Shown piece by piece: positions 3,069 to 5,359 of a stretch of DNA of 52,673 bases. Made by a program: the position numbers and the translations under genes. Under the pieces are notes generated by a model. It saw nothing but the letters and a program-made list of their open reading frames with translations, was not told the origin of the DNA and did not search any database. The DNA is from a virus: positions 1 to 52,673 of IMG/VR virus record IMGVR_UViG_3300036715_001331, one strand, 5' to 3'. Within the stretch, counting starts at the first letter, position 1, and the number at the start of each line of letters is the position of its first letter.

Positions 3069-3634
3069 AGTTTCCTCGGGTCGATTTTGAACTTTTCCAG
3101 CTGGTACCGGATGTTTGCGGCCCCGACCCCTGGGGCGTTTTTCTCTCCTGAAATCTTGACGCACTGGTAGAGCAGAAAGGCATCCGCCTCGTCCGTCGTC
3201 TTGAACCTGGCCCCGAACTTCTTGGTCACCTCGTTCAGGTAGTCGCTTTCGTAGTCGGCTCGGCCCTTCTTCATGCTGATGCCGGTAACCATCTTCCAGG
3301 TGCCGATCGGTACCTCGATGATCGGCACCTTTCTGGCGTTGAAGAGCCCACGGAGAAGTCCGCCGACCTCGGCCAGCCCGGTGAGCGAGCTTGACCCGCC
3401 CCGGACCTGCCCGGACCGGTCGACGAACTTCTCGCGGGCCATGAAGGCGTACTGCTCGATGATCATCAGGTCCCACCCCTCGGCGCTGATGCGGGCGAAC
3501 TTGAGGCAGAACCGGCCGAGCACGTCGATCCGGTTCTCCTCCTTGCGTTGGATGGCCTCGCTGAACCAGACCCCGTCTTCACAGGTGAAAATCCCGAGGC
3601 TTCGGAGGCTGGGGTCCAGCGAGATCGCTTTCAC
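3065..3634 (-). CDS. RuvC-like Holliday junction resolvase
   Basis: The 189-residue protein has the RNase-H-fold pattern of RuvC-type resolvases. It shows SLDPSLRSLG near the start (Asp7), MIIEQYAF (Glu60) and TTDEADAFLLY (Asp148/Asp151), matching the acidic residues that bind metal. Length fits bacterial and phage RuvC (about 150-190 residues). Such enzymes cut four-way junctions made during recombination or replication and can clear branched DNA before packaging. The gene is ATGA-coupled on both sides. The likely partners are the exonuclease/ERF annealing genes of this phage. Confidence 0.85.
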   Translation of the reverse strand: MKAISLDPSLRSLGIFTCEDGVWFSEAIQRKEENRIDVLGRFCLKFARISAEGWDLMIIEQYAFMAREKFVDRSGQVRGGSSSLTGLAEVGGLLRGLFNARKVPIIEVPIGTWKMVTGISMKKGRADYESDYLNEVTKKFGARFKTTDEADAFLLYQCVKISGEKNAPGVGAANIRYQLEKFKIDPRKL

Positions 3635-4114: not shown

Positions 4115-5359
4115 TCAAAAGCTAGACCTTTGTTTTCGCTCCGTCAAGAGCGCCATGAGGATGGTCCAGGCCAGGACCACCACCTGGGGAACCTGCCCGT
4201 TTCCAATGGCCTTGAGCCGGTCGACCCGGGCCGGGCGCCCGCGGGCCACCCGGGGGATGTCGGCCTCCCAGCTGCCGTCCGCCCATGGCTGGCGACCGTA
4301 CCGGCCCTTCTCCCAGATCCAGGCCTGGAAGTCCTCGAGGCTCACCGGCTGAAGGCTGGACCAGCCCATGGGCCACCCCATCAGGAGCTCGACCCAGTCG
4401 GCGTTCAGCTGGCCCCCGATGGCGTTGGGCAGTTGCTCGCCCTTCTTTCCTCCGCCCCGGGCTTCGTAGCTTTCGGCGTTCGGGCTTCGATAGTCCCGCG
4501 CTGCCGGCGTTAGGAAGGCCTCGCGCTCGGCCGTTGCCACCGCGGTCTCGAGAGTGGCTCCGAACCGGACCCCGGAGGCGCTGGTTCTTGTTTTCCCGTC
4601 CGCCGAGACGTCGCCGGCAATTTGTCCGGTGTGGGCGCCCCGGGGCGTGGCGCTTGGTGTGGGCCAAGTCTGGGTGAAGGAGTGCAGGGTATCCGGAACT
4701 CCTCGGTGTGCCCCCGTGCTCTGTGAATCCTCGGCTCGAGGGGTGGGAAACCTCTGGGCTACAACGCTGAGGCTCGGGCTCCCGTTGGGGTATCCCTTCA
4801 CCATTTCGGCGTCAGCCCTGATCGGTGTGGGCCAGAATCCAGATCCGGTCCCGCTGGTGGGGAGCACCGGCGTCGGCCGCGGCCAGAACACCCCATTCCG
4901 CACCGTACCCCATCTTGGCCAGGTCTCCGAGTACGGTTCCAAGTCCCCGAGAAGTGAGCATTGGCGAGTTTTCCACGAACGCGAATCGGGGTCGTACTTC
5001 GCCAATGATGCGGGCCATTTCTTTCCAGAGCCCGCTTCGCTCTCCCTCGAGGCCGTCTCCGTTTCCGGCGGCGCTGATGTCCTGGCAAGGTCAAGGGAAC
5101 CCGCCACAAATGACGAGTTCCCGATTAACCTCCCTTGCCCTGTCGAAGAAGGGTCTTGTTTCTGGATTGTCGGCTCGGAACGTCTTAACGTCGTCCCAAA
5201 TGGGAAAAACCGGTAGAACTCCGTCAAGCTGTCTTTGGAGCAGAACTCTTCGGGGATAGCTTTCGATTTCAACGGCGCAGATCGGGACGTGTCCCAAAAG
5301 GGCGTCGGCGACAATCCCCCCCCTGCTCCTGCAAATAAGTGGATGGAATACAAACCCAT
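4115..5359 (-). CDS. C5-methyltransferase-like ORF, catalytic core out of frame
   Basis: An unbroken 414-codon frame opens with MGLYSIHLFAGAGGG, the SAM-binding motif I of C5-cytosine methyltransferases. It closes with the usual end of phage enzymes: LNADWVELLMGWPMGW (318-333) and RVDRLKAIGNGQVPQV (378-393, motifs IX-X). Residues about 16-178 are not the expected catalytic core. The core (PCQ, ENSP, RDRIW motifs) is encoded in the other frame of the same DNA (4812-5321). Even so, this frame reads sensibly here: SLAKYDPDSRSWKTRQCSLL, YSETWPRWGTVRNGV, SGTGSGFWPTP. From memory, similar text occurs in phage proteins annotated as methylases. It may be a dual-coding locus, a frameshifted enzyme or a decayed one. 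A ribosome site, AGGAGGGCC, precedes the ATG. Confidence 0.7.
   Translation of the reverse strand: MGLYSIHLFAGAGGGLSPTPFWDTSRSAPLKSKAIPEEFCSKDSLTEFYRFFPFGTTLRRSEPTIQKQDPSSTGQGRLIGNSSFVAGSLDLARTSAPPETETASRESEAGSGKKWPASLAKYDPDSRSWKTRQCSLLGDLEPYSETWPRWGTVRNGVFWPRPTPVLPTSGTGSGFWPTPIRADAEMVKGYPNGSPSLSVVAQRFPTPRAEDSQSTGAHRGVPDTLHSFTQTWPTPSATPRGAHTGQIAGDVSADGKTRTSASGVRFGATLETAVATAEREAFLTPAARDYRSPNAESYEARGGGKKGEQLPNAIGGQLNADWVELLMGWPMGWSSLQPVSLEDFQAWIWEKGRYGRQPWADGSWEADIPRVARGRPARVDRLKAIGNGQVPQVVVLAWTILMALLTERKQRSSF
4812..5321 (-). pseudogene. C5-methyltransferase catalytic core in the alternate frame
   Basis: Read one base out of step with the 414-codon frame, this DNA encodes the normal middle of a C5-methyltransferase: a motif II-like CAVEIESYPRRV, CGGFP then a TGA then PCQDISAAG (motif IV, catalytic Cys), RFAFVENSPMLTSRGLG (motif VI) and GAPHQRDRIWILAHTD (motif VIII), stopping at 4812. 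A -1 shift on the eight-G run at 5316-5323 would join it exactly to motif I. The TGA at 5091-5093 comes from a 6-bp tandem duplication (CTTGAC/CTTGCC) that leaves the other frame open. As sequenced, the active site cannot be made by ordinary translation. This could be decay, two assembly errors, or recoding. Confidence 0.7.
5316..5323 (-). other. Eight-G run at the methyltransferase frame switch
   Basis: On the coding strand the run GGGGGGGG lies in codons 13-15 of the C5-methyltransferase ORF. One extra G, or a -1 ribosomal slip here, changes frame so that LFAGAGGG continues as IVADALLGHVPICAVEIE, the expected continuation. Such runs are prone to replication slippage (phase variation), to ribosomal slippage and to sequencing error. 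Confidence 0.6.

Follow-up and report, generated by a model that had tools for sequence, protein, structure and literature searches.

A Candidate In-Frame Stop-Hop in Catalytic Motif IV of Phage C5-Cytosine Methyltransferases with a Second Subunit Encoded in an Overlapping Frame

Organization of the Methyltransferase Locus

The window, by which we mean the whole 52,673-base virus record analysed here, contains a C5-cytosine methyltransferase locus on its minus strand. To judge from its sequence, the upstream neighbour is probably a DnaC-like gene, and short open reading frames follow downstream. Both frames of interest, designated alpha (catalytic) and beta, exist on the minus strand where a preliminary description of this DNA had placed them. 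The features of the alpha frame are listed below.

5316–5359, minus strand: alpha start with motif I (MGLYSIHLFAGAGGG), sharing the frame of the 414-codon open reading frame; compare MYTLHLFAGAGGGILGDILLG, intact in L113
5316–5323, minus strand: G8 tract; nine G would join motif I to the remaining alpha (IVADALLGHVPICAVE)
5094–5315, minus strand: alpha before the interruption (IVADALLG ... ELVICGGFP)
4812–5087, minus strand: alpha after the interruption (CQDIS ... QRDRIWILAHTDQG), PF00145 E = 1.3e-11
5087–5085, minus strand: catalytic Cys codon TGC
4973–4965, minus strand: motif VI (ENS)
4868–4839, minus strand: motif VIII
4814–4812, minus strand: alpha stop

The alpha frame reads IVADALLGHV...ELVICGGFP-stop-PCQDIS...FVENSP...GAPHQRDRIWILAHTDQG-stop; it includes PCQDIS, FVENSPMLTSRGLG and GAPHQRDRIWILAH, and its terminator lies at positions 4812–4814 (minus strand). 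A 68-residue piece of alpha matches PF00145 with E = 1.3e-11, and with the TGA read through the matches are 5e-22 for PF00145 and 3.4e-43 for phrog_363. All PF00145 hallmarks, namely motifs I, IV (PCQ), VI (ENV), VIII (QRxR) and X, are present in the window, spread across two frames and with a stop inside motif IV. The catalytic core recognized in the preliminary description is thus borne out by the PF00145 and phrog_363 matches, whereas its treatment of the frame as intact is not, given the stop in motif IV and the frame break at motif I.

The latter break is due to the G8 tract, which separates motif I, sitting in the 414-codon frame, from the remaining alpha. This type of break is absent in the relatives L025, L110, L113 and L125, which are interrupted in motif IV, and the tract may reflect an error (homopolymer, assembly or sequencing), phase variation or a genuine lesion. 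Since it is a second break of alpha in the window and would not be mended by a hop at motif IV, we do not claim that alpha is produced in this phage.

Dual Coding in the Second Frame

The second frame belongs to a long open reading frame with the following features.

4115–5359, minus strand: 414-codon open reading frame, phrog_1008 E = 2.4e-28; beta (target-recognition region, motif IX and motif X) from about residue 91; alpha motif I lies within the first 15 codons
4361–4396, minus strand: motif IX WVELLMGWPMGW in beta; E, L, M, G, P and W do not vary among 36 beta sequences
4178–4210, minus strand: motif X AIGNGQVPQVV in beta; alpha-profile match in the beta frame, with the same layout in L023, L027, L028 and L113

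The two frames were searched separately, and alpha led to phrog_363 while beta led to a separate family, phrog_1008 ("DNA methyltransferase"), with a match covering residues 91–409 (E = 2.4e-28) and the frame running into motifs IX and X. The view taken in the preliminary description, that the second frame is meaningful, is sound. In the window, alpha lacks motif IX, which is found on the separate beta polypeptide. Searches of NCBIfam with beta and of the PDB with the beta profile gave no match; the AlphaFold model of beta was poor (pLDDT 51), and Foldseek with this model returned no informative match.

A frame overlapping a conserved enzyme may be no more than its shadow, kept open by codon composition, and the window taken by itself is compatible with this: 32% of synonymous shuffles leave the +1 frame without a stop over the 89 codons of the alpha core (P = 0.32), and no stop occurs there in the third frame either. 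The comparison across genes gives a different answer. We permuted synonymous codons, holding protein and codon usage fixed, in 67 distinct alpha genes from loci fetched by alpha alone; from motif IV on, the +1 frame contains 1 stop against 193 ± 9 expected and is open in 66 of the 67 genes (2.2 expected), whereas the +2 frame contains 685 stops against 632 expected. In synonymously divergent pairs, the amino-acid similarity of beta exceeds that of synonymous shuffles with a mean z of 3.24, compared with 2.00 in the control frame, and the beta value is the higher of the two in 139 of 150 pairs. In addition, beta carries motifs IX and X outside alpha, in some phages reaching far past the alpha end as the sole carrier of both motifs, and phrog_1008 is a family of its own. 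This test of dual constraint contradicts the shadow reading, which we regard as scarcely credible, and the sequence comparisons support dual coding with a nested second subunit, as the preliminary description had suggested.

Two layouts are found: in one, alpha comprises motifs I–VIII and X and beta comprises IX; in the other, to which the window, L023, L027, L028 and L113 belong, alpha comprises I–VIII and beta comprises IX and X. Both frames are open over nearly the whole gene in the Acinetobacter phage ABMM1, phage MW202462, Pseudomonas phage phPA-G and others. Some such genes are already annotated, as in Paenibacillus phage Sitara, whose gp60 is called "g59 internal gene", and in the pairs GigiOuiOui gp65/66, Samy gp49/50, RemusLoopin gp34/35 and Catdawg gp6/5.

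Several subfamilies differ in detail. The openness of the +1 frame extends upstream of motif IV in the L140–L219 subfamily (2 stops, 69 expected), where several loci have a separate +1-frame ATG located 4 nt after that of alpha. In L010/L020 a beta-frame stop at 3181–3183 lies just ahead of the conserved part while alpha is intact, which suggests that beta can start downstream of this stop. In L004 (1102–1892; Mycobacterium phage GigiOuiOui gp65), alpha motifs IV and VI are in different frames, possibly reflecting a further recoding site or an error.

In M.EcoHK31I, too, the second chain is encoded in a nested frame, and the likeness to this enzyme drawn in the preliminary description is apt. 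M.AquI and M.EcoHK31I are the established split C5 enzymes (PMC3404938), with the catalytic motifs on one chain, as here, and motif IX (EcoHK31I) or motifs IX–X (AquI) on the second. The window differs from them in that beta holds both IX and X and overlaps alpha motifs IV–VIII, and in that alpha has a stop in motif IV.

An Interruption between the Proline and Cysteine of Motif IV

The recurrent hairpin-plus-stop element in motif IV is a more unusual finding than the dual coding. Its parts in the window are as follows.

5095–5122, minus strand: hairpin GGGAACUCGUCA-UUUG-UGGCGGGUUCCC, 12 bp, abutting the take-off codon; supported by pairing and covariation across 38 alleles
5094–5096, minus strand: proposed take-off codon CCT (motif IV Pro)
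5091–5093, minus strand: in-frame stop TGA in motif IV
5088–5090, minus strand: proposed landing codon CCT

Positions 5105–5082 (minus strand) read GGC GGG TTC CCT / TGA CCT / TGC CAG, so that a 6-nt insert lies exactly between the Pro and the Cys of motif IV. A relative, L025, has TAA CTG in place of the TGA CCT of the window. Wider scans, some of them baited with the GGCGGGTT flank, raised the set to 38 distinct alleles of widely divergent phage C5 enzymes, representing the subfamilies PCQDIS, PCQDVS, PCQPYS, PCQPFS, PCQPWS and PCQAFS, with 6–10 extra nucleotides between Pro and Cys. The use of GGCGGGTT as bait biases its frequency among all 38; in the unbiased scan the flank occurs in 13 of 18 interrupted alleles, compared with 3 of 136 uninterrupted ones.

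The inserts are 6 nt long in 33 alleles and 7, 8, 9, 9 and 10 nt long in the others, and each of the 38 carries a stop or shifts the frame. All 33 six-nucleotide inserts begin with a stop codon (TAA 13, TGA 13, TAG 7). Overall, a stop is located 3′ of the take-off codon in 36 of 38 alleles; L224 and L225 lack the initial stop and retain a CCN landing codon. In 36 of 38 alleles the insert ends in a YYN codon (CCN 19, CTN 12, TCA 4, TTA 1), and in the remaining two it ends in ACA. The YYN codons can be paired by a tRNA-Pro with a GG anticodon through Watson–Crick or G–U pairs; ACA and TTA would pair with it poorly. Take-off and landing codons are CCT and CCT in the window, CCN followed by CCN or CTN in 31 of 38 alleles and CCN followed by another YYN in 5. 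The gaps that are out of frame keep the landing codon as well (7 nt, TCA, L279; 8 nt, CCC, L225; 10 nt, CCG, L224).

An unrestricted scan of viral contigs for any 6-nt insert at this site recovered genuine methyltransferases only with a stop first, its ten stop-less matches not being methyltransferases, and on this ground we rejected chance or ordinary insertion. Eight apparent 1-nt insertions proved to be uninterrupted AGFPCQ sites in another register. All interrupted alleles come from uncultivated virus contigs. A search of 84,980 bacterial and archaeal genomes did not recover the interrupted methyltransferase, the four pattern matches in bacterial genomes not being methyltransferases, and the interruption is absent from the 13 isolate or deposited phage loci inspected; the closest relatives in isolate phages are below 60% identity and uninterrupted.

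One way to accommodate these stops is that they are read through, or that alpha is made as two reassembling pieces (motifs I–III and IV–VIII). A C after the stop is in general a weak termination context, and C follows the stop in 28 of 36 alleles. Split C5 enzymes can, moreover, complement each other (PMC3404938). However, three different stops are in use, scans of the window and of 36 interrupted stretches, each only part of a contig, revealed no suppressor tRNA, and the gaps of 7, 8 and 10 nt are unreadable in frame. Readthrough would also add two residues directly ahead of the catalytic Cys, and no in-frame start is seen near the downstream piece. We therefore consider readthrough or splitting improbable.

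The Hairpin 5′ of the Take-Off Codon

In all 38 interrupted alleles a hairpin of 10–17 bp ends at the Pro codon. Its 3′ arm consists of the bases just 5′ of that codon, and pairs with a 5′ arm drawn from a more upstream part of the same coding sequence. Folding of the 60 nt that precede the take-off codon gives a mean z of −3.39, compared with +0.54 in uninterrupted genes (Mann–Whitney U test, p = 2e-16), and on average 10.5 of the eleven nucleotides ending at the take-off codon are paired, compared with 3.8. Covariation amounts to 0.232 against 0.165 in shuffled data (reached in 0 of 500). In the MAFFT alignment, both sides of a pair have changed in 10 cells (1.7 in shuffled data), and 91% of cells pair, compared with 17–62% when the partner is slid. 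The upper stem uses many pair types; at position −10, for example, they are GC 19, AU 6, GU 4, UA 4 and CG 3.

The window has GGCGGG ahead of the take-off codon, while L111, L112, L115, L118 and L124 lack it and keep the stem with other pairs. The uninterrupted L023 (from the clade of the window), L032 and L046 have GGCGGGTTCCC and neither the insert nor a long stem. A covariance model of the hairpin also scores uninterrupted relatives and gives no clean separation, because the coding sequence is shared, and Rfam has no match at the site up to E = 1. When the window was scanned for a stop flanked by matched codons and accompanied by a hairpin, a few chance sites came up, and the case accordingly rests on the comparison of alleles rather than on any single sequence.

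The geometry GGCGGG-UUC-CCN-stop resembles the prfB site, and beta is in the +1 frame, so an RF2-like +1 shift at CCN-stop that joins the alpha N-terminus to beta has to be considered. The prfB site has a strong Shine–Dalgarno-like stimulator 3 nt from the shift codon, which is not what we find here: anti-Shine–Dalgarno pairing is weaker in interrupted genes (−6.2) than in uninterrupted ones (−7.35), and the GGCGGG bases are accounted for by the stem, so that we rejected GGCGGG as a Shine–Dalgarno stimulator. Such a shift would, furthermore, leave the catalytic Cys untranslated and make an insert of 6–10 nt superfluous. The interrupted L105, L111, L112, L115 and L118 have no open +1 frame, and since some interrupted genes lack beta, we reject the idea that the stop serves to bring about a +1 shift into beta; as an account of the element such a shift is very improbable.

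Selection, Phylogeny and Association with HNH Endonucleases

In pairs of interrupted genes, dN/dS of alpha is mostly about 0.1–0.3 both before and after the interruption. After the interruption it is 0.108/0.539 for L116–L117, 0.120/0.597 for L111–L115 (no beta) and 0.130/0.705 for the window and L110; a few short upstream segments, such as that of L113–L125, are higher and noisy. The low values include the downstream part and the three beta-less genes L111, L115 and L118. Alpha is thus under purifying selection on both sides of the interruption. On the tree the interruption requires at least 12 changes by parsimony, at least four of them forced by supported branches. There are deep all-interrupted clades, one of which comprises eight rows at support 100; uninterrupted relatives of these clades are thinly sampled.

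An HNH-type insert in frame with alpha, located immediately ahead of the hairpin, between motifs III and IV, is found in 10 of 38 interrupted alleles and in none of 136 others (p = 9e-8); it matches phrog_2340 (5e-24) and phrog_8446. L228 also has an HNH-type insert. In L047 and L070, motifs IX and X are separated by an HNH-like stretch (HHxxQDxTxN...LCxxCHDFWH) that is in neither the alpha nor the beta frame and resembles the hidden HNH of the ShiLan domain. The latter is an HNH endonuclease within a phage methylase gene that shows no detectable splicing (PMC11855218); it is out of frame in a methylase without a stop, whereas the HNH of the interrupted alleles is in the alpha frame, upstream of the interruption.

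The association raises the question of whether the insert is a scar shielding the gene against an HNH homing endonuclease, with alpha dead and its flanks conserved by recent acquisition. Invasion of phage methylases by homing endonucleases has been described (PMC11855218), and the distribution of the HNH gene given above fits this account. So does one decayed copy, the interrupted L106 (1960–2107), in which most of alpha is deleted (PCQDISVTGTKNRVDRLKAIGNGQ), indicating that some interrupted alleles do decay. A scar, however, would not need a stop as the first codon of all 33 six-nucleotide inserts, and the YYN preference of the last codon, the hairpin in 38 of 38 alleles and its compensatory changes speak against it. 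Within the all-interrupted clades alpha dN/dS is mostly low at dS up to about 1, and no allele has a further alpha stop in the 70 downstream codons, a property partly built into the filter. We consider this explanation unlikely, albeit less so than readthrough or splitting.

Discussion

Overall, the sequence comparisons show the recurrence of the interruption, the covarying hairpin, the preference for particular landing codons, selection on alpha on both sides and the HNH association. On this basis we propose that the locus probably encodes a two-subunit phage C5-cytosine methyltransferase whose alpha subunit is made by programmed bypassing, which we call a stop-hop. Alpha would carry motifs I–VIII, and beta, in the overlapping +1 frame, would supply the target-recognition region and motifs IX and X. 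With the hairpin directly 5′ of the CCN codon and a stop in the A site, peptidyl-tRNA-Pro may let go of the message; the completed stem, which reaches the take-off codon, could push the ribosome forward by 6–10 nt to the YYN codon, where tRNA-Pro would re-pair past the stop and decoding would resume at the Cys codon. The product would be GGFP-CQD, with nothing added. The hop itself, the pairing of alpha with beta and the activity of the enzyme in the phage of the window are inferences.

The proposal can be compared with the few known cases. Accepted natural bypassing is limited to T4 gene 60 and, by genome inference, one yeast mitochondrion (PMC5009743). In T4, the slide is believed to be triggered when a 5′ stem completes and pulls on the mRNA, and a homing endonuclease is linked with the bypassed insert (PMC5009743). 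The present element shares with T4 gene 60 a stop after the take-off codon, a landing codon directly before the resume codon, a 5′ stem-loop, the link to an HNH homing endonuclease and the location in a phage enzyme gene (PMC5009743). It differs in that the gap is 6–10 nt and mostly in frame, compared with 50 in T4, that the landing codon is often matched only by wobble, that the hairpin abuts the take-off codon, and that it occurs in a different gene family and in many lineages, where it is known from sequence alone. Synthetic "stop-hops" have been built in E. coli, in which a single amino acid is specified by nine nucleotides that have a stop at their centre (cited in PMC5009743). These were constructs, and according to the 2016 review natural in-frame stop-hopping was not known (PMC5009743); nor did we find a report of the hairpin-stop element in the part of the literature covered.

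In Cluster O mycobacteriophages, overlapping methylase reading frames have been described for which two products, a frameshift, a hop or an intron were left open (PMC4351075). Corndog gp6/gp7 and other mycobacteriophage methylase pairs (PMC4351075) resemble the window in having coding potential in both overlapping frames; the motif IV stop and hairpin are not known there.

Taken together, our results favour, with somewhat less assurance than the proposal for the locus itself, a natural family of in-frame stop-hops, built from a hairpin, a CCN codon, a stop and a YYN codon, which would reside in a catalytic motif of phage C5 methyltransferases in at least four lineages, in association with HNH endonucleases and, in the window, inside a gene that also encodes a second subunit. 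Through the dual coding, many genes become available for comparison in an arrangement for which otherwise a few restriction-modification enzymes are the known examples, and it is relevant to the open question of the mycobacteriophage methylase pairs. If the stop-hop is real, dozens of independent, short elements with covarying hairpins would open the sequence rules of bypassing to direct tests, the view that homing endonucleases and bypass sequences travel together would gain support, and phage methylases that look broken would be explained.
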